NCBI GenBank assembly: GCA_017302045.1 | Contig: JAFLED010000007.1 | Span: 1-36,324, forward strand | Source of the DNA: Spirochaetota bacterium | Lineage (GTDB): Bacteria; Spirochaetota; Leptospiria; Turneriellales; Turneriellaceae | Direction of reading: 5' to 3' | Length of the DNA: 36,324 bases | Part shown: piece after piece, positions 4,242-26,265 of the stretch | How the letters are laid out: each line of letters opens with the position of its first letter | How positions within the stretch are numbered: the first letter of the stretch is position 1 | The notes under the pieces: model-generated | The model's input: only the letters and a program-made list of their open reading frames with translations | What the model was told of the DNA's origin: nothing | Database searches by the model: none | Program-made: the position numbers and the translations under genes

Positions 4242-4393
4242 GCTGTCATCTTTGGAAAAAAAAATCGGCTCACAAGAAAAAAAGTAAACGTGCGTTCCGA
4301 ATTTTTTTTGATTATGTCGCATGCCGTCGGATTTTTTTTTGACTTTTTTTCACGAAACATTTGACAACAGAGCTAGATGATTAGTATGCTCAC
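4242..4393. promoter_or_regulatory. A/T-tract intergenic region with a TTGACA box, promoter of the receptor operon
   Basis: The 152-bp region between divergent genes contains A9 (4256-4264), A7 (4277-4283), T8 (4302-4309), T9 (4332-4340) and T7 (4344-4350). These tracts can bend DNA and act as UP elements. A consensus TTGACA follows at 4361-4366. Candidate -10 boxes are TAGTAT at 4382-4387 (15-nt spacer) or TATGCT at 4385-4390 (18-nt spacer). Either would start RNA within a few bases of the GTG at 4394, so the transcript could be leaderless. Confidence 0.45.
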
Positions 4394-7012
4394 GTGCAGT
4401 ACCGAACGCTCATACGCTTACTTTTCTTTTTCGCCACTTCATTCTCGATTTTCTCCGCCGACTACGATTTCAACATTGATGAAACCACGGCGCCGGCAAA
4501 AACCGAGAAGAAAAAAAATCGAAAAAACAAAATCGAAAAAATTCGCGAAGAGCCCGAAGCAGAATCACCAAAAACTCCGCTAACAAAACCAACAAAGAAA
4601 GATTCGGTCTCGAGCGCAGACGTCTTTGAGCTCTTCAAGGGTGAGCAGAAAGTTGCCATCGTGTCCAAAAAAGAAGAGCGTATTCAAGATGCGCCCGCGA
4701 CGATCTATGTCGTTGGCGAAAAAGAAATTAAAGAGCGCGGGTACATGTTTCTGCACGACCTGCTGCGCGACGTACCGGGTTTCGATTTTATCAACGACCT
4801 GGGTACCTACGGTATGATGGCGATTCAGCGGGGTGTCGATACCCCCGAAAATAACAAGACTCTGATTTTTATCGACGGTATTTCGACGAACAACCCATCA
4901 CAGGGTGTGAGTTATATGTCGTACCAATTCGCACTCCATAATGTCAAGCGGGTAGAGATTCTGTGGGGGCCGGCTTCTGCCCTCTATGGAGCCAATGCCT
5001 TTTCGGGGATTATCAACATTGTAACGAAAACGGCCGACGACCTCGAGGCTGATGGCAAACTCGGCCATGTCAGCGCGGGCACGATTATTCCCAAGGTGGC
5101 GTCTTCACCCGTGCCGGCGGGTATGTATTTTGATTTTCTTGCCGGTGGAAAAATGTGGGAAGAAGAAGGCGCCGGAAAAATTACGGTGTCAGGGCATTAT
5201 ATCCGGTCAGATTATGGGCCCGACTATGGACGACATTATGATCCTGCCAAAGGTGCAAAAACCAATGCAGAATATTACGTTCCTTCCAATACAGGAACAA
5301 TGCCGATTCTCGGGGACTATAGTGCCCAGATTCGGTTCGATTACAAAGGTTTAACCGTCGGCGCGAGGGCCTGGTACATCATGTCAAAACAAGGGGGGTT
5401 TGCAAACTATAACGCAAGCGCCGTCGAGCTGGCGTACTGGGGATTTCAGGGTCAAGACGTTTACGCGAAATACAATCATAAGTTTAATCAAACACTGTCG
5501 ACCTTCACGCAGGTCAGCTTTCGCGCGAGCCAGTTACCCGAGGGCGAATACGGCAAGCGCGTCATCGATGCCGACAGGGATTGTACTTTGGCAGCCGCCG
5601 CGGGTACTTGTACTGGTGGTAATCCGGGCAGTTCGACTCCCGGCCGCCTGCTCTGGTATAAGCGCAATGATTTCGCCCTGTCTGCCGACCAGCAAGCGAC
5701 CTTCGACTGGAATGTGCATTCGACGACAAACCTCGGGATATTCGGCGAATACGCCCGCGTTTCTAACTGGAACACAAACGACACGTCGTTAACCAAATGG
5801 AACGGAACCGATTTTAGCACGCCGCGTTATCCAGACGAACGCAAAGGCAGCTTTGACGGCAGCGGCCGAATTACCGACGAAGGTGTCGGGCCTGCCGACA
5901 AAGACGAGGTGTATTATAAACAATACAACGCAGCTCTCTATGCTCAGCATAGCGAAACTTTCTTTCAGCAACTGAAATTTACCGTGGGTGGCCGGGGCGA
6001 CCTCTTCGTACTCAAAGGACAAGAGGGGCCACAACCGATCGGCGTTGCTACAAACTCGACATGCGCGAGTTGCGACGCCAGCACCGTCTACAGCGATGCG
6101 CAAGCGGGCGCAGCAGGTGCCCAGTTGAAGCGCAGCGGCATTTATTACAACATCAACGATGTAAATGTCAGCGTTTTTTCGCTGAATCCCCGCATCGGCG
6201 TCGTGTGGAACCCGAACCAAACCCACTCCGTGAAACTACTGCATGGCTGGGCATTCCGCAACCCTACAGTGCGCGAGCGTTTCTCGCTGTCGAGCAGCCG
6301 GATTCCCATCGGCGCCGACCTGAAACCCGAGCAGATTAAGACTACCGAACTTGGCTATGCGGTAAAACCATTGAAATTTCTGCGTGCAGAAATCGACGGC
6401 TTCTGGTCTGAAGTGCAGGATTTAATTCAGCTCTCGGACTCCAAGTTTGGCAAATCGGGATCCAGCTCGGCCATGACGCAGTTTCAGAACATCGGCTCGG
6501 CAAGACTTTTAGGATTCGAGGTCAAGACCGATATCGCCCTCGTACAAACTGCCCCGCTCAGTATTCTTTTATTCCTCAATTATTCGTTCCAAAACAATCG
6601 GTACCTCGAAATCAGCGCGGCGGGCGCAACTTCACTTAGCCACGAAAACGATCGTCCCGGAGACACTCAGAATTCATACCAAATGCCGCGGGTGTCGCAG
6701 CATAAAGCGAATGTCGGTATCACGATGTATCTCCACCGCCATTTTTCGATCTCGCCGATTCTGCATTATGTTGGCGCGCGACCTAACGTGATTACGAGTC
6801 CGGTGAACTATATTCCGGCTTACACGATGGTGAACCTGAGCCTGGGATACCATAATCCGCAAAAAGACTGGGATGCTTCGCTTTATATCTTCAACCTTTT
6901 AGATCAGGATATTAACGACCCCGGAACGCGCGACGCGAGCGGCGTCTATTATTCGTCGATGCGCCCCGAAGCCCGACTCACCATCTGGGCAAAACTAACC
7001 TACAAAATATGA
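4394..7012 (+). CDS. TonB-dependent outer-membrane receptor
   Basis: An 872-residue outer-membrane receptor of the ferrienterochelin/colicin class. A signal peptide ends near Ala22 (FSA, then DYDF), followed by a Lys/Glu/Pro-rich linker (about 35-72) that could span the periplasm or contact TonB. The plug domain spans about 97-215, with DAPATIYVV, LHDLLRDVPGF and VEILWGPASALYGANAFSG. The rest is a barrel ending in IWAKLTYKI, a typical aromatic/hydrophobic C-terminus. The substrate could be a siderophore, cobalamin or another ligand; nothing visible decides. The start is GTG 4394, the only in-frame start before the signal peptide because TAG lies at 4382. The stop overlaps the next gene by 4 nt (ATGA), so translation is coupled. 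Confidence 0.93.
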   Translation: MQYRTLIRLLFFFATSFSIFSADYDFNIDETTAPAKTEKKKNRKNKIEKIREEPEAESPKTPLTKPTKKDSVSSADVFELFKGEQKVAIVSKKEERIQDAPATIYVVGEKEIKERGYMFLHDLLRDVPGFDFINDLGTYGMMAIQRGVDTPENNKTLIFIDGISTNNPSQGVSYMSYQFALHNVKRVEILWGPASALYGANAFSGIINIVTKTADDLEADGKLGHVSAGTIIPKVASSPVPAGMYFDFLAGGKMWEEEGAGKITVSGHYIRSDYGPDYGRHYDPAKGAKTNAEYYVPSNTGTMPILGDYSAQIRFDYKGLTVGARAWYIMSKQGGFANYNASAVELAYWGFQGQDVYAKYNHKFNQTLSTFTQVSFRASQLPEGEYGKRVIDADRDCTLAAAAGTCTGGNPGSSTPGRLLWYKRNDFALSADQQATFDWNVHSTTNLGIFGEYARVSNWNTNDTSLTKWNGTDFSTPRYPDERKGSFDGSGRITDEGVGPADKDEVYYKQYNAALYAQHSETFFQQLKFTVGGRGDLFVLKGQEGPQPIGVATNSTCASCDASTVYSDAQAGAAGAQLKRSGIYYNINDVNVSVFSLNPRIGVVWNPNQTHSVKLLHGWAFRNPTVRERFSLSSSRIPIGADLKPEQIKTTELGYAVKPLKFLRAEIDGFWSEVQDLIQLSDSKFGKSGSSSAMTQFQNIGSARLLGFEVKTDIALVQTAPLSILLFLNYSFQNNRYLEISAAGATSLSHENDRPGDTQNSYQMPRVSQHKANVGITMYLHRHFSISPILHYVGARPNVITSPVNYIPAYTMVNLSLGYHNPQKDWDASLYIFNLLDQDINDPGTRDASGVYYSSMRPEARLTIWAKLTYKI

Positions 7013-8343
7013 AACCGACTCTCGCGCCGATCGTCGCCATCGCGCTTTCTCTGCCGTTATTCGGCGGTGAAAAAGGAAAACACACATACATTCTTTATGA
7101 AAAAGGTTCGCGCTTTCAGGAAATCACGCTCGACGGTATTCTTAGCCGCTTACCCACTGCCAAGCCGCTGGTGCTGGGCGATGAATCCGCGTTAAAAAAC
7201 TGCGACGACGGCGGCACAGCGGCCGTAATAACAATCGGAAAGCCTTCGCTCGATAAAGCCCTCGAGACCTGTAAAACAACGCCCGTTGTGTTTTCGCTGG
7301 TTTCTGCACCACGCTTCGGCGACTACAAGTCGCACCGTAATGTTACCGGCGTAAGCTTCGACCTGTCATTCCGTTTATTTCTGACCGAGTTTCAAAAAGT
7401 CATGAAGCCGGGCTCGCGTATCGGTTTCATCTACAGCTCTGCGCAAAACGAGTTTCTGACGACTGAGATCGATTATGTCGAAAGCGAATTTAACTTCACC
7501 GGCGTGCGGGTGAAAATCGAAAACCGCGAACAGATCGGGGCAAAGGTTAAACAGCTCATCGAAGAAGAAAAAGTCAAAGCGATCTGGGTTCTGCCTGACC
7601 CGCTCTATAACCAGGCGATTTTTCGCAAACTCGCAGATCTCTGCGCCGAAAAGGGCATTTTACTCGTGACCAATTTTGAGGTGCTGGTCACCGAAGCGGG
7701 TGCCGCTATCGCACTGGCTCCCAGTTATTTTGATACGGGCGTGCAAACCGGCGAGATGGCACAAAAGATCATCGCGGGTATAAATCCGTACGATGTCTCT
7801 TACCAACGCCCGCGCCAATCGGGTGTTTATCTCAACCTGAAGCTGTTTCAGGAGCTCAGAATCGATCTGCCAGACGACCTGCGCTTCAAAGAAAAAGTGA
7901 CGACGCTGCTCAACGACGCGCAAGAATTGCAGAAAGACGGCAATACGGGTAGTGCGCTCGTGAAGTTTCGCGAGGTTCTCAAATACGATAAAAAAAATGC
8001 GACCGCCACCTACTTCGTCAATTCGATACAGGCGCGCGCAAACCTCAACGGCGCTTATGCCCGAATTCAAAGCGGCAACCGGCGCGGAGCGATACCGCTC
8101 TTAATCGCGGCCAGCCCCTTTTTGCCCGAAGCGCGTGCGCGGCTGGCGTCGCTTCGCGCCGAAATGCGCGGCGAGGTCGGCGGCATTTTTGCGCAGGGTG
8201 TCGCGCAATTTAAAAACAAAAAATACCAGGAATGTATCAATACCATGAACCTGGTGCTGATGATCGATCCGGGTAACCGTGAAGCTGAAATCTACAAGGA
8301 GAAATCGGGAAAACGCGCGAAGGCCGTTTCTGCGATACGCTGA
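7009..8343 (+). CDS. ABC-type periplasmic substrate-binding protein (COG2984-like) with helical repeat tail
   Basis: A 444-residue exported protein with a signal peptide at about 1-20 (hydrophobic stretch ending LFGG). Residues 25-290 match the ABC_sub_bind fold (type I periplasmic binding protein): SRIGFIYSS at the second lobe, AIWVLPDPLYNQ, then a GAAIALAPSYFDTG/QTGEMAQKI segment. Residues 300-444 are Ala/Leu-rich helical repeats similar to TPRs, unusual for a binding protein. Family members usually sit beside a two-subunit permease/ATPase, but none is present. Instead the gene is locked between a receptor (4-nt overlap) and a sensor phosphatase (1-nt gap). A sensing or adaptor role is inferred. 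Confidence 0.8.
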   Translation: MKPTLAPIVAIALSLPLFGGEKGKHTYILYEKGSRFQEITLDGILSRLPTAKPLVLGDESALKNCDDGGTAAVITIGKPSLDKALETCKTTPVVFSLVSAPRFGDYKSHRNVTGVSFDLSFRLFLTEFQKVMKPGSRIGFIYSSAQNEFLTTEIDYVESEFNFTGVRVKIENREQIGAKVKQLIEEEKVKAIWVLPDPLYNQAIFRKLADLCAEKGILLVTNFEVLVTEAGAAIALAPSYFDTGVQTGEMAQKIIAGINPYDVSYQRPRQSGVYLNLKLFQELRIDLPDDLRFKEKVTTLLNDAQELQKDGNTGSALVKFREVLKYDKKNATATYFVNSIQARANLNGAYARIQSGNRRGAIPLLIAASPFLPEARARLASLRAEMRGEVGGIFAQGVAQFKNKKYQECINTMNLVLMIDPGNREAEIYKEKSGKRAKAVSAIR

Positions 8344-8344
8344 T

Positions 8345-10462
8345 ATGAACAGAATATCTATCAAACTGGCACTGACCGTGCTTGTCGTTGCGGTGGTCGC
8401 GGCGATTCCACTGTCGATGTACATCTTGCTGAAACAAGAAAAAGAGAAAATCGAATCGACCGTCGCCATCGGCCGCGGCAATACCAAACTTTTGGGCAAA
8501 ACCATGCTCGACGTGTTTCTCAAATCGGGCGGAGAGCCCAACTCGATGCGTATCGACGCCGAAGAGGCGATGAATACCTACAAAGACCAGTTCGATCTCG
8601 GACTCGTCTTTGGTCAAACGCTGATGCTCAGCAAAAAACACCGCGGCCTCATTATGGCGACCATCGACAAGAATGGCCTGGAAAAACCAAAAAAGCCGGA
8701 TGCGAATAAAGACAAGCAGGCCGAAATCACTCGTAAAGAAGACGAGATAAATAATTTTCTTAAGTACGAAGAAAGCCATTCGGGCCCCTGCTTTAACAAT
8801 CCAGCCGAAAAATGTTACAACTTCTCTTTCGTGGCGAAATATGAAAAGACTCCGGTGATTCTCTCGGTCATGTCGATCTCTGAAAAACATGTACTCGACC
8901 CCATCAAACGCCTGCGCTTTCTGATCTACATCAGCGCCGGGGTCGCCGTCGTGCTGGCACTGATGCTCGGCGTCGGTGTGTCGCGTTTCATTACGGGCCC
9001 GATTACGGCGCTGGTCGAGGGCGTGCACCGTTATACGAAAGGCGATCTCGACTATAAGGTTGATATCCGCGTTAAAGACGAACTCAAAACACTCGGTACG
9101 GCCTTCAATGACATGGCCGACCAGATCGCGACGAAGATCAGGGAAATCGAAGACCACCGCGACAATCTCGAAGTTAAAGTACAAGAGCGCACCTCTGAGC
9201 TGCGTACCGCGCTGACCGAAGTTTCAAAACTCAAAGAACAGCAGGATGCGGATTATTATCTGACGACATTTCTCTTCAAGCCGCTCTGCATCAACCGTAA
9301 CTCGTCGGAGTATATCTCAACCGAATTCTTTTTGAAACAGAAAAAAGAATTTTCATTCCGGGATAAAAAAGGCGAGATCGGCGGCGATATCTGCATAACC
9401 GCGAACCTGCTCTTCCGCGAGAGCGACGGCACGGTGAACCGGTATCTCTTCGCGACCAACGCCGACGCAATGGGTAAATCGATACAGGGTGCAGGCGGCG
9501 CCATTGTGTATGGCACCGCGATCAACACGATCATCGCTTCGTCGACGGCGAATAACCGCGTGCTCGAAACCTCGCCGCGCGAATGGCTAATGCGCATGTA
9601 CCGCGAACTGCACAATATCTTTCTCTCGTTCGACGGCTCGATGCTGGTATCGGGCGTCTTTATGCTGCTGAACGAACATAACGGCAACGCGTATTACATC
9701 AATGCCGAGCACCCGTGGACGATTCTCTTCCGCGATAATAAATCCGAGTTTATCGAGCAAGATCTCATGCTGCGCAAATTAGGCGCCGACATTCCGGGGC
9801 ATACACTGACCGTGAAAGAATTCTCGTTCAAAGTCGGCGACGTACTTTTTCTCGCATCGGACGGTCGCGACGATATCGTGCTCAAAGAAGCTGAAAACGG
9901 CCAGAACCGCGTCATCAATGAAGACGAGAAGGCGATTCTCGACATCATTTTACAGGGAAGCGGCAGCCTGCAAAAGACCGTCGAAACCCTGCAAAATACC
10001 GGCGGCTTTTCCGACGACCTTTCCATCATTCGTATCGAGGTGCTTGGCTTTAACCCACAGCCGATCGAACGGCAGCGCATCGCCGAAAATGCGCGCGCCT
10101 CGGTGAAAGAGCGGCTTTCGCATATCAAACTGCTCATTCAGAAAAAGGATTTTGCCGGTGCCGCAACCGCACTGCAAGAGACTTCTTCAGAACTGAATAT
10201 CGAAAATGTGCCGCAGTATTATATTCTACTGAGCCGCATTCAGCTGAACGACGGGCAATTACAGCTCGCGCGCGAAAGCCTCGAAAAAGCCCTGCGCCTG
10301 GGGCACGAAGCGGCGCCGACGTATAAATCCCTCGGTAACATCTTCTACAAACTCAAGATGAAGAAAGAGGCCGTCGAAGCGTGGGAGAAGGCAATGCTTC
10401 TGAACCCCGAAGATAAGTCGCTGCGCAACCTGCTCGACGAATTGCAGGCGCAGGCGGTCTAA
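8345..10462 (+). CDS. Membrane sensor with HAMP, SpoIIE/PP2C phosphatase and TPR domains
   Basis: A 705-residue inner-membrane signalling protein. TM1 is at about 7-29. A periplasmic region (30-190) carries two cysteines (PCFNNPAEKC) that might form a disulfide. TM2 is at about 193-215, then HAMP (to about 270) and a coiled coil. The SpoIIE-type PP2C domain (about 335-570) has metal-binding aspartates in EIGGD (Asp348), ASDGRDD (Asp506) and FSDD (Asp557/558). Helical TPR-like repeats cover about 590-705. SpoIIE/RsbU phosphatases dephosphorylate anti-anti-sigma (STAS) proteins; no STAS gene is adjacent. ATG 8345 is one base after the previous stop and begins just before TM1; an upstream frame opening at 8279 overlaps that gene. 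Third gene of the receptor operon. Confidence 0.9.
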   Translation: MNRISIKLALTVLVVAVVAAIPLSMYILLKQEKEKIESTVAIGRGNTKLLGKTMLDVFLKSGGEPNSMRIDAEEAMNTYKDQFDLGLVFGQTLMLSKKHRGLIMATIDKNGLEKPKKPDANKDKQAEITRKEDEINNFLKYEESHSGPCFNNPAEKCYNFSFVAKYEKTPVILSVMSISEKHVLDPIKRLRFLIYISAGVAVVLALMLGVGVSRFITGPITALVEGVHRYTKGDLDYKVDIRVKDELKTLGTAFNDMADQIATKIREIEDHRDNLEVKVQERTSELRTALTEVSKLKEQQDADYYLTTFLFKPLCINRNSSEYISTEFFLKQKKEFSFRDKKGEIGGDICITANLLFRESDGTVNRYLFATNADAMGKSIQGAGGAIVYGTAINTIIASSTANNRVLETSPREWLMRMYRELHNIFLSFDGSMLVSGVFMLLNEHNGNAYYINAEHPWTILFRDNKSEFIEQDLMLRKLGADIPGHTLTVKEFSFKVGDVLFLASDGRDDIVLKEAENGQNRVINEDEKAILDIILQGSGSLQKTVETLQNTGGFSDDLSIIRIEVLGFNPQPIERQRIAENARASVKERLSHIKLLIQKKDFAGAATALQETSSELNIENVPQYYILLSRIQLNDGQLQLARESLEKALRLGHEAAPTYKSLGNIFYKLKMKKEAVEAWEKAMLLNPEDKSLRNLLDELQAQAV

Positions 10463-19991: not shown

Positions 19992-21866
19992 ATGCTAACC
20001 TCGATCATCATTGACCGGGTCGGCAGCACCAACGTCTTTAATATTGTCCAGGAAAGCGGGGTGTCGAATCCCGCTCTCAAGGCCAACGAGCGCCTGCAGT
20101 CGATCATCGACGACGATCTCATCGCCGAATATCTCGAAGAACTGGGGCGAATCGCCAATATTTCCCGGTCTCTTTCTTCGTTGCCGCGCGGCAGCGAAGA
20201 AAGCCAGGCGCTGATTTTTCAGCACCTGAACCTCAGCCACAAACTGCGCGAAATCGGCGAAGCGCTGTTCAAACAATTTTTCCCCGCCCCGCTGCAGGAA
20301 TTCATCCGCGATTCGCAGCAAAGTTACCTTTATTTTCACGTCGACGCGGCGCTTGCCTCTCTGCCGCTCGAAATTCTGCACGACGGTACCGCCTTCTTAT
20401 GGGAAAAATTCTATGTCGGTAAAGCGATCAAAGGCCAGGATATCTCACTCAGCGATTTTCACCCCCGCGAGATTATCAACATGCTCATCATCGCCGACCC
20501 ACGCGAAGACCTCGATTGGGCGCGCCGCGAAGGCGAGCTGTTGTTCGAACATTTAGGCGCGTTCGTCAGCCCTAAAAAAATTAACCTGACGCTGATCGGC
20601 GGAAAAACCGTTACCAAACTCAATATCCTCAACTCGATTCTCGACAAAGACATCATCCATTACGCGGGGCACCTGCACCACAGCGGAAATCCCGATGAGA
20701 ACGGCTGGCTTTTAGCCGATGGCAAGATACTCTACGCGCGCGAATTTAAAATGAGCGGCGCGCAGCCTAAACTGATTTTTTGCAATTCATGCCTGAGCGC
20801 GCGCTCAGATGAACACGCGGGTGACGCCTCGTGGTATGCACAATTCGCCGCGGCGTTTATCCGCGCGGGCCGCACCAGCTATGTCGGCACCAACTGGGAG
20901 CTACCCGACCGGCAACCGACACTCGAGTTCACGACGCAGTTTTACGATCATATCTTTCAGGGCAAATCGCTCGGCGAATCTTTGCAGCAAAGCCGCTCGC
21001 ATGCGCGCGAACATTTCTCCCTGAATGACCTGACTTGGGCTTCGTACCTGCTGATGGGTAACCCGATGCAAACGGTCTTTAGAGCCGATTCGCTGCTGCC
21101 CGACGTGACGCGCAACATGCTCGAACCCGAAGACGTTACGGGCCACTACCCGTACCCAATCGCCGAGGCTTTCGAGAAATTTCACCGTATCTTCGCCGAC
21201 AAGAGCGAACGCGGCGAAAACGGTGGCGAAGAGAGTCTCAAGGCATTATTCTATCTTTTTTCGCAGGTACTGTTTTTTCTTACCGGACTCGTGCTCGCTA
21301 ACTACAGGATTTTTAATTTCCCCAAACCCATCGCCTTTCCTTTTCCCCATGTCGAAAAATCGCTCGCAGCTCTGTTCTCGGCATTAGGGGCGATTCGGGC
21401 CATCAAGGCGCATCCGCTGGCGGTAAACCTGCTTGAGACGCTCTATGTGCATAAAGAGAACCTCGAGAAAATCGCCAACCTGAGAAAAAAATACCGCGCT
21501 GGCGGTGTCAAAGAATCTGATTTTGAAACCTACACGATCACGGTGCAATACCTGATGGAGGCGCTGCTCATCGATCTCGATTTTTTACGACACTACGGTT
21601 TTTATCTGATCGTTGAACCGGGGCATCGCCAGCTCAGCTTTCACGGTGTCGAACGCCACCATACGCACCGCGATATTATTCTGCCGACGCAGGCGAATGC
21701 GATGACGTATACCGAACTGCTCGAAAAGACCTCGTATCTTGTCGGCCGCTGCGTATTTTATTCGCCTGTGAAAAAAACCTTTCTGGATCTTTCGCCCTTC
21801 ATGCGTATCAGTGCCGAAGCCGACGGCACCTACAACTTCGCTTTTACGAAGACGAAAGCGGGTTAA
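19992..21866 (+). CDS. CHAT-domain caspase-like protein with unassigned C-terminal half
   Basis: A 624-residue protein. Residues 1-110 are mostly helical. The CHAT (caspase-HetF-associated) peptidase domain covers about 110-370. The catalytic dyad is visible: His227 in HYAGHLH and Cys267 in LIFCNSCLSA, followed by AFIRAGRTSYVGTNW and the family-typical late LTWASYLLMGNPM. Residues about 380-624 match nothing I know; they include a hydrophobic stretch (FYLFSQVLFFLTGLVLANY) and a helical core ending in mixed strands. CHAT proteases are used in several bacterial immune and cell-death systems and in signalling, usually with an upstream sensor. No such sensor gene is adjacent. AGGTGG lies 7-12 nt before ATG 19992. 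Probably co-transcribed with the acyl-CoA ligase. Confidence 0.85.
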   Translation: MLTSIIIDRVGSTNVFNIVQESGVSNPALKANERLQSIIDDDLIAEYLEELGRIANISRSLSSLPRGSEESQALIFQHLNLSHKLREIGEALFKQFFPAPLQEFIRDSQQSYLYFHVDAALASLPLEILHDGTAFLWEKFYVGKAIKGQDISLSDFHPREIINMLIIADPREDLDWARREGELLFEHLGAFVSPKKINLTLIGGKTVTKLNILNSILDKDIIHYAGHLHHSGNPDENGWLLADGKILYAREFKMSGAQPKLIFCNSCLSARSDEHAGDASWYAQFAAAFIRAGRTSYVGTNWELPDRQPTLEFTTQFYDHIFQGKSLGESLQQSRSHAREHFSLNDLTWASYLLMGNPMQTVFRADSLLPDVTRNMLEPEDVTGHYPYPIAEAFEKFHRIFADKSERGENGGEESLKALFYLFSQVLFFLTGLVLANYRIFNFPKPIAFPFPHVEKSLAALFSALGAIRAIKAHPLAVNLLETLYVHKENLEKIANLRKKYRAGGVKESDFETYTITVQYLMEALLIDLDFLRHYGFYLIVEPGHRQLSFHGVERHHTHRDIILPTQANAMTYTELLEKTSYLVGRCVFYSPVKKTFLDLSPFMRISAEADGTYNFAFTKTKAG

Positions 21867-25534: not shown

Positions 25535-25559
25535 GCTTGACGGCGGTGTGTAGGCCGCC
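25532..25559 (+). promoter_or_regulatory. Shared TTGACG word and hairpin before the FecR lipoprotein gene
   Basis: TAGGCTTGACGGCG (25532-25545) is identical to bases 402-415, also upstream of a lipoprotein gene. TTGACG (25537-25542) could be a -35 box, but no -10 lies at proper spacing before ATG 25570. GGCGG (25542-25546) pairs with CCGCC (25555-25559), a possible terminator or attenuator stem. Confidence 0.28.
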
Positions 25560-25569
25560 ATCTCAGATT

Positions 25570-26265
25570 ATGAAGACAGCAACGCTTTTAATCCCCCTGC
25601 TGATCGCCGCCTGTGAAAAAGCCCCGCCGGTCACCGACGGCGTCGTGACCTTTGTCAAAGGTTCGGCGAACATCGAACACATCGAAAGCGACGGGTCCAA
25701 AAAGACCAAAGCCGCGCGCCAAGGCGATAAAGTGTTCGCAGGCGACACCATCGTCACCGGTGAAGCGACGAACGTGATCTTTCAGGTTTCGGGTGCGCAA
25801 ATGGAAATTCAGCCGAATACGCGTTTTGTCTACGAACGCGCGGGCGAAGATAAGCAGGTCTACCTGCAATCCGGCAACGCATGGACATCGGTTTCGAAAC
25901 TCGGCGAAAAAGCAAAATTCACCCTGCGCACGCCGACGACCGTTGCGGGTGTGCGCGGTACAAAGTTTTTCACGACAATTTTACCGGGCGGTCTAACCGG
26001 AACCTGCCATTGCGAGGGTAAGATCTCTTACAAAAACACCGTCAGCGGCAAAGAAGAAGTCAATGACGGCGATTACCTGATGTTCTACCGTGATAAGAAG
26101 GCCGTGAAAGTGACGCTCGAAGATATCAAGAAGCTGGGCCTGCCGGCCAACCACAACCATTCAGAACTCGATAACGGAACGATGGGAAAAAAGAATAACA
26201 TGACCCCCGCCCAGGCCGCGAAGATGATGGCGCTGGTCGAACAGCGCTTCGCCGCGCAAAAGTAA
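25570..26265 (+). CDS. FecR-domain lipoprotein
   Basis: A 231-residue predicted lipoprotein: MKTATLLIPLLIAAC gives a strong lipobox (lipid on Cys15). Residues about 25-160 form a FecR domain: VTFVKGSANIEH, GDKVFAGDTIVTGEATNVIF (in pieces), MEIQPNTRFVYE, then LRTPTTVAGVRGTKFFT. The last motif, TPTxVAGVRGTxF, is the clearest FecR mark. Classical FecR is an inner-membrane anti-sigma regulator, whereas lipoproteins with only this domain are common in spirochaetes and appear structural or ligand-binding. Two Cys in CHCEG sit after the domain. The Lys/Asn-rich tail (MGKKNNMTPAQAAKMM) may be helical. ATG 25570 gives a complete signal; an upstream ATG at 25537 does not. Confidence 0.85.
   Translation: MKTATLLIPLLIAACEKAPPVTDGVVTFVKGSANIEHIESDGSKKTKAARQGDKVFAGDTIVTGEATNVIFQVSGAQMEIQPNTRFVYERAGEDKQVYLQSGNAWTSVSKLGEKAKFTLRTPTTVAGVRGTKFFTTILPGGLTGTCHCEGKISYKNTVSGKEEVNDGDYLMFYRDKKAVKVTLEDIKKLGLPANHNHSELDNGTMGKKNNMTPAQAAKMMALVEQRFAAQK

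Follow-up and report, generated by a model that had tools for sequence, protein, structure and literature searches.

A conserved operon of a TonB-dependent receptor, a TPR-tailed binding protein and a SpoIIE-type phosphatase, a candidate trans-envelope signalling module in relatives of Leptospira

Gene content and organization of the operon

The window, a 36,324-nucleotide stretch of a 3.78-Mb draft genome that is 84% complete, carries three closely packed genes that encode a TonB-dependent outer-membrane receptor (TBDR), a secreted periplasmic binding protein (SBP) of family PF04392, and a membrane phosphatase with HAMP, SpoIIE and TPR domains (Table 1). An earlier note on this DNA had described the genes as joined by a 4-nt ATGA overlap and then a 1-nt gap, and both junctions are present, the overlap at 7009-7012 and the gap between the TGA of gene 2 (8341-8343) and the ATG of gene 3 at 8345. 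The mechanical ORF caller pushed the start of gene 3 upstream to a GTG at 8279, which would create a 65-nt overlap with gene 2; the ATG at 8345 is the sensible start. No promoter-like site was found between the three genes in a consensus scan of the + strand. Pfam searches bore out the domain assignments of the note, which had named a TonB-dependent receptor (Plug, E 2e-18; barrel, E 1e-33), a COG2984-like binding protein with a helical tail (PF04392, E 2e-19; tail predicted to be all-helical, aa 289-443) and a HAMP-SpoIIE-TPR membrane phosphatase (E 1e-11, 4e-21 and 1e-9, respectively). An SDR gene lies 46 nt downstream of the operon, an adjacency that is not kept in relatives, and elsewhere in the window a gene for a 624-aa CHAT-domain protein (19992-21866) adjoins one for an AMP-binding enzyme.

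Table 1. Features of the three-gene operon, in window coordinates.
Feature	Position	Strand	Evidence
Promoter-like match TTGACA-18-TATGCT	4361..4390	+	upstream of gene 1; sole + strand match; consensus match only
Gene 1, TonB-dependent outer-membrane receptor, 872 aa, GTG start	4394..7012	+	Pfam Plug PF07715 and TonB_dep_Rec_b-barrel PF00593
Receptor N-terminal extension: DYDFNID start, Lys/Glu/Pro-rich linker, then SADVFELF before plug	4460..4663	+	N-terminus comparison of SBP-linked TBDRs
Plug domain, PF07715, aa 97-206	4682..5011	+	Pfam
Gene 2, secreted periplasmic binding protein, 444 aa	7009..8343	+	PF04392
Type I periplasmic-binding-protein domain	7222..7881	+	Pfam PF04392, aa 72-291
Helical TPR-like tail of binding protein	7873..8337	+	all-helical in model, pLDDT 89-97
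Gene 3, membrane HAMP-SpoIIE-TPR phosphatase, 705 aa	8345..10462	+	Pfam HAMP, SpoIIE, TPR
Presumed periplasmic sensor region between two transmembrane helices	8435..8914	+	hydrophobic stretches; placed before HAMP
HAMP domain, PF00672, aa 212-261	8978..9127	+	Pfam
SpoIIE/PP2C-type phosphatase domain, PF07228, aa 367-566	9443..10042	+	Pfam; acidic motifs
Cytoplasmic TPR tail	10094..10444	+	TPR_2 and TPR_1, aa 657-690; weaker matches from ~584

The binding protein, which begins with a signal-peptide-like stretch, is encoded by the sole PF04392 gene found in the window genome. An AlphaFold2 model built with 12 relatives (mean pLDDT 86) shows the type I binding-protein fold and, after it, helices that make up residues 289-443. 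The PDB folds that fit it best are CD0873, TrpX (3lft), 3lkv and then LuxP-LuxQ (1zhh), and TorT-TorS (3o1i) was also matched. Pfam matches to TPR in the C-terminal 150 aa of the window protein are weak, but TPR repeats are clear in relatives and in a profile search. The combination of PF04392 and TPRs in one chain is specific to the class to which the window belongs; matches outside the class cover the binding domain (frames of ~320-400 aa) or the TPRs only. A PDPLY-like motif was considered as a signature of these SBPs and dropped, a loose pattern search having found it in part of the family only.

The phosphatase contains the acidic motifs GGD346, D374AMGK, S505DGRDD and S556DDLS, which fall where we take the metal ligands of SpoIIE/PP2C enzymes to be expected. 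Its presumed sensor region matched no Pfam family. The window genome has ~27 STAS matches and several HATPase_c_2 proteins, potential partners of such an enzyme, but none of these genes is linked to the operon, there is no STAS match on the window contig, and the operon itself has no SiaB, SiaC or SiaD gene.

Linkage of the three genes in Leptospira relatives

In 48 draft genomes from the window's class (Leptospira relatives), with genes called mechanically, we located every PF04392 gene and searched its surroundings using profiles derived from the window proteins. Twenty-nine of these genomes encode a total of 46 PF04392 genes; a TBDR gene directly adjoins 26 of them, and 32 directly adjoin a gene for a signalling protein, namely a SpoIIE protein, a class III cyclase or a histidine kinase. 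A TBDR or signalling gene lies within two genes in 42 of the 46 cases, and several loci are cut by contig ends. The adjacency on which the earlier note had staked its reading is thus conserved rather than rare in relatives.

SpoIIE-type proteins are very numerous in these genomes, with up to 136 loose first-look candidates in a single one, and it might be supposed that phosphatase genes come to lie beside PF04392 genes by chance. The counts refute this explanation, which we regard as having a negligible probability: 26 TBDR neighbours were observed against ~0.25 expected, and ~30 SpoIIE neighbours against ~1.5, giving P below 1e-30, a value that is indicative only, as the expectations come from loose per-genome candidate counts and the loci, treated as independent, share descent. 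The same set of genes recurs in varying orders and strand arrangements, which is a stronger argument than the P values. The order TBDR-SBP-SpoIIE was found in the window and two relatives (L080, L090), SpoIIE-SBP-TBDR in seven (L072, L075, L076, L079, L084, L092, L116) and SBP-SpoIIE-TBDR in one (L091), and divergent or convergent forms in another seven (L082, L083, L088, L089, L107, L108, L112).

Not every locus has the full triad. An SBP and a SpoIIE gene occur with no adjacent TBDR at four loci (L103, L109, L110, L120), and in three of those genomes the same contig carries a TBDR-SpoIIE cluster at a distance of ~10-15 kb (L133-L135); TBDR and SpoIIE genes occur together without an SBP at five loci (L133-L137). 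The operon is patchy even within the window's own genus, where G002, G004 and G005 lack this form. Short SBPs of ~313-318 aa that have no TPR tail are encoded beside or near HAMP-SpoIIE genes at L073, L077, L081, L085 and L086, and at L073 and L086 a TBDR gene is nearby as well. In one genus, a conserved run of proteins of ~125, 330 and 400 aa that have no clear Pfam family is encoded beside SBP-SpoIIE pairs (L109 8544-12474, L110, L087, L103, L120).

Interchangeable signalling outputs

The signalling output is swappable across relatives. Pfam identified the SBP-linked gene as HAMP-SpoIIE-TPR in the window, L075 and L105, as HAMP-SpoIIE followed by a HAMP-class III cyclase in L088, and as a HAMP-class III cyclase (Guanylate_cyc) in L074; in L083 and L119 it encodes HAMP-HisKA/HATPase, or HAMP-HisKA where a contig end truncates it. 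L093 has a 7TMR-DISM-SpoIIE gene on one side of the SBP and a histidine kinase gene on the other. In L117, PF04392 and a class III cyclase (Guanylate_cyc) are fused in a single chain of 668 aa. PF04392 is thus joined, as a neighbour or in a fusion, to whichever cytoplasmic output the locus has. Tandem PF04392 pairs were observed twice, at L117 7028-9031(-), where one member is the cyclase fusion, and at L114 7960-10954(+), where a short cyclase gene follows.

Four relative clusters (L106 9702-13297(-), L107, L108 and L089) include a SiaA/SiaB/SiaC-like set and a second SpoIIE gene beside the SBP and receptor, with SiaB (DUF6272) and SiaC assignments that are slightly below the Pfam cut-off. 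These sets are candidates for a complete phosphoswitch circuit, and a SiaA-SiaB-SiaC phosphoswitch is the likely output in these four relatives. Given the SiaC-like and SiaB-like genes inside these clusters, a partner-switch output seems likely, though not certain, for the window operon.

Absence of a cognate permease

PF02653 (BPD_transp_2) is the permease family that serves PF04392 binding proteins. It had no match in the 84%-complete window genome or in 44 of the 48 class genomes, and the same search was positive in 12 of 14 control genomes. In the three class genomes with clear matches, the sites are away from the SBP-TBDR-SpoIIE loci. The absence that the earlier note had described for the operon therefore extends to the window genome and nearly the whole class, and no permease neighbour of the SBP emerged that would contradict it. 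A Pfam census of 125 other neighbour genes, which lists families with one or two members only partly, turned up no transporter family that recurs at least three times, apart from a weak phosphonate-type binding protein in four. One weak Phosphonate-bd periplasmic protein is encoded at L081 7464-8330(+), beside the genes of a HAMP-SpoIIE protein and a short PF04392 protein that resembles a lipoprotein.

These data bear on the possibility that the operon serves nutrient uptake, with the receptor importing a solute, the SBP passing it to a transporter of the inner membrane whose genes are elsewhere, and the phosphatase, although co-transcribed, regulating something unrelated. In its favour, most TBDRs act as importers, some of the TBDRs with an N-terminal domain (described below) have neither an SBP nor an output neighbour, and the PF04392 proteins whose structures are known (3lft, 6hnj) capture Trp or Tyr for ABC importers. 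The binding-protein fold is common to the window protein and those PF04392 (COG2984) importer components, TrpX and CD0873, but the window protein differs from them in its TPR tail, its receptor and signalling neighbours and the lack of a detectable permease in its genome. We reject the importer reading because the PF02653 permease is missing, and consider it very improbable; in addition, no transporter family recurs among the neighbours, SBP types track the signalling enzyme and not the receptor, and TPR tails and a cyclase fusion are ill-suited to a transport role.

Co-inheritance of the partners

Distance matrices for 19 triads were correlated most strongly between SBP and SpoIIE (Mantel r 0.65), followed by SBP and TBDR (0.52) and TBDR and SpoIIE (0.36), with only 0-4 of 9999 permutations reaching these values, although genome relatedness contributes to this mirror-tree signal, part of which is common ancestry. 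In genomes with two systems (G006, G011, G035, G044, G047), the SBP and SpoIIE types are mostly matched and the TBDR has been exchanged. L075 is an example: its SBP and SpoIIE proteins group with those of G035, G047 and G019, while its receptor groups with those of SiaABC-type loci. We read these patterns as a stable SBP-enzyme core with an exchangeable receptor.

Such a core might be sufficient by itself: the SBP-phosphatase pair could sense a periplasmic ligand in the manner of LuxPQ, with the receptor gene being no more than a target that the pair co-regulates. The tightness of the SBP-SpoIIE association, the exchange of TBDRs between systems, and the occurrence of at least four SBP-SpoIIE loci with no adjacent TBDR all point in this direction. 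Against it, the TBDR is joined to its neighbours by overlaps or short gaps in several lineages and gene orders, and TBDRs with the N-terminal domain occur almost only in genomes that encode the SBP-TPR protein. We judge this explanation unlikely, and prefer one in which the receptor is part of the system.

N-terminal region of the receptors

Close homologues of the window receptor are encoded in G003 (75%) and G006 (61%), and a fragment in G001 (77%). Many SBP-linked TBDRs outside the window's genus have a periplasmic region of ~160 aa before the plug, which the window receptor lacks; in its place is a short, charged, low-complexity linker, and the only feature that the window extension shares with the other linked receptors is an S.ADVF.L-like motif near the plug. 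Pfam returned nothing for the ~160-aa region, even with the E threshold relaxed to 1. A profile of the region matched at 60 sites, distributed over 23 of the 48 genomes of the class (examples are L076, L075, L084 and L106); outside the class, among 393 sampled genomes of the phylum, it gave one marginal match. The PF04392-TPR protein is present in 22 of those 23 genomes. Twenty-seven of the 60 sites are within three genes of an SBP and another 14 adjoin a signalling gene but no SBP; the remaining 19 lack both.

An AlphaFold2 model of this domain, made from only 8 sequences (mean pLDDT 76), has a b-a-b-a-b-b-b-long-a fold. The PDB folds most similar to it were HpaA, PelC, the N-terminal domain of TolB, LpoB and CsgG, with E values of 1e-6 to 1e-3 and modest TM-scores; a PDB sequence search returned nothing significant, and the matches come from fold comparison alone. 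The domain is accordingly described here as a predicted TolB-N/PelC/HpaA-like domain that is almost confined to the class.

An N-terminal domain before the plug is also what would be expected if these receptors signalled in the manner of FecA, their N-terminal region contacting the inner-membrane protein and the SBP being an accessory. Five loci (L133-L137) pair such TBDRs with SpoIIE in the absence of an SBP, which fits that scheme. Like systems of the FecA-FecR-FecI type, for example the Fox system (PMC11637429), the window operon links a membrane signalling protein to a TonB-dependent receptor that presumably senses at the cell surface. The operon differs in having a plug and barrel without STN, FecR anti-sigma or ECF sigma factor, and in having a separate SBP and an enzyme as output. 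No STN domain was found by Pfam in the window receptor, or in the receptors of seven relatives at E up to 1. FecR and ECF sigma genes were not among the recurrent neighbours, and the sole FecR-domain protein found in the window is encoded 15 kb away (25537-26265). FecR domains are abundant in class genomes, with up to 24 per genome, and probably not all belong to anti-sigma factors. We reject classical cell-surface signalling because STN, FecR and sigma factor are missing, in agreement with the proposal of the earlier note that the route is different from FecA-FecR-FecI. The short, low-complexity extension of the window receptor and the better co-variation of SBP with SpoIIE than of TBDR with SpoIIE also argue against a FecA-type mechanism, which we consider improbable.

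Discussion

Beside the observed domain content, operon structure, linkage across relatives, co-inheritance of partners, missing permease and interchangeable outputs, we place the conclusion that the three genes are most likely one functional signalling unit. With somewhat less confidence, we favour the full relay, a trans-envelope signalling module that has the receptor as its input. The receptor would take in or sense a ligand at the cell surface, and the periplasmic SBP-TPR protein would detect either the ligand or the state of the receptor. The SBP might then act on the HAMP sensor as LuxP does on LuxQ, or TorT on TorS, and the HAMP protein would convey the change to the cytoplasmic SpoIIE phosphatase, which could dephosphorylate a switch protein of the STAS or SiaC type whose gene lies elsewhere. 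Ligand, contacts between the proteins, TonB dependence, signal direction and phosphatase substrate are the parts of this model that we infer.

For the window we favour an "import and sense" arrangement, in which the receptor delivers the ligand and the SBP reports it, because this receptor has no folded N-terminal domain. Direct contact between receptor and SBP is plausible in the relatives that have the extra domain. A more specific version, which we put forward tentatively and rate as somewhat less than probable, is that these are class-specific transducers in which the N-terminal region of the TBDR (TolB-N/PelC-like in most) physically hands its state to the TPR-tailed SBP, which would plug into interchangeable inner-membrane enzymes (phosphatase, kinase or cyclase), forming a bridge from the outer membrane to the cytoplasm that uses no sigma/anti-sigma pair.

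Several known systems resemble parts of this module. Binding proteins activate sensor proteins in LuxP-LuxQ, TorT-TorS and NspS-MbaA (PMC11113362). The likeness is in an SBP that has no cognate permease and is encoded beside a HAMP sensor, and in the model matches to 1zhh and 3o1i; what differs here is a PF04392 protein with a TPR tail, a mostly SpoIIE output, and a TonB-dependent receptor in the cluster. As with LuxP-LuxQ, a type I SBP gene was found beside that of a membrane sensor, and its non-transport use is suggested by the missing permease family. In SiaABCD/RsbU-type partner switches (PMC7647112) the phosphatase is likewise of the HAMP-SpoIIE/PP2C kind, and SiaA/SiaB/SiaC-like genes are found in the four relative clusters described above, but the window operon lacks SiaB, SiaC and SiaD, and its input comes with a TBDR and an SBP.

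In its logic the module also resembles YfiBNR, which consists of the outer-membrane lipoprotein YfiB, the periplasmic YfiR and the inner-membrane YfiN, and has relatives in which the output is swapped for a histidine kinase, GGDEF/EAL or MCP (PMC3375315). Both systems have an outer-membrane part, a soluble periplasmic relay, and a membrane protein with periplasmic sensor, HAMP and output, and in both the outputs are swapped. No part is homologous, however: a TBDR takes the place of YfiB, PF04392-TPR that of YfiR, and a SpoIIE phosphatase that of the diguanylate cyclase, and the YfiR (DUF4154), YfiB and GGDEF families had no Pfam match in the three window proteins. Neither TonB nor SpoIIE is mentioned in the text of the YfiBNR paper (PMC3375315), and narrow keyword searches of the literature found no published description of this gene set, which probably represents a previously undescribed route for signals through all layers of the envelope.

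The known routes from TonB-dependent receptors to the cytoplasm go, to our knowledge, via FecR-like anti-sigma factors. If the reading favoured here is true, a receptor coupled via an SBP to phosphatases, kinases or cyclases would add a second route, and a modular one. It would give a testable input to some of the unusually many input-orphan SpoIIE phosphatases in Leptospira relatives, and would assign a likely function to the TPR-tailed PF04392 family and the ~160-aa receptor domain, both of which are essentially confined to this class.
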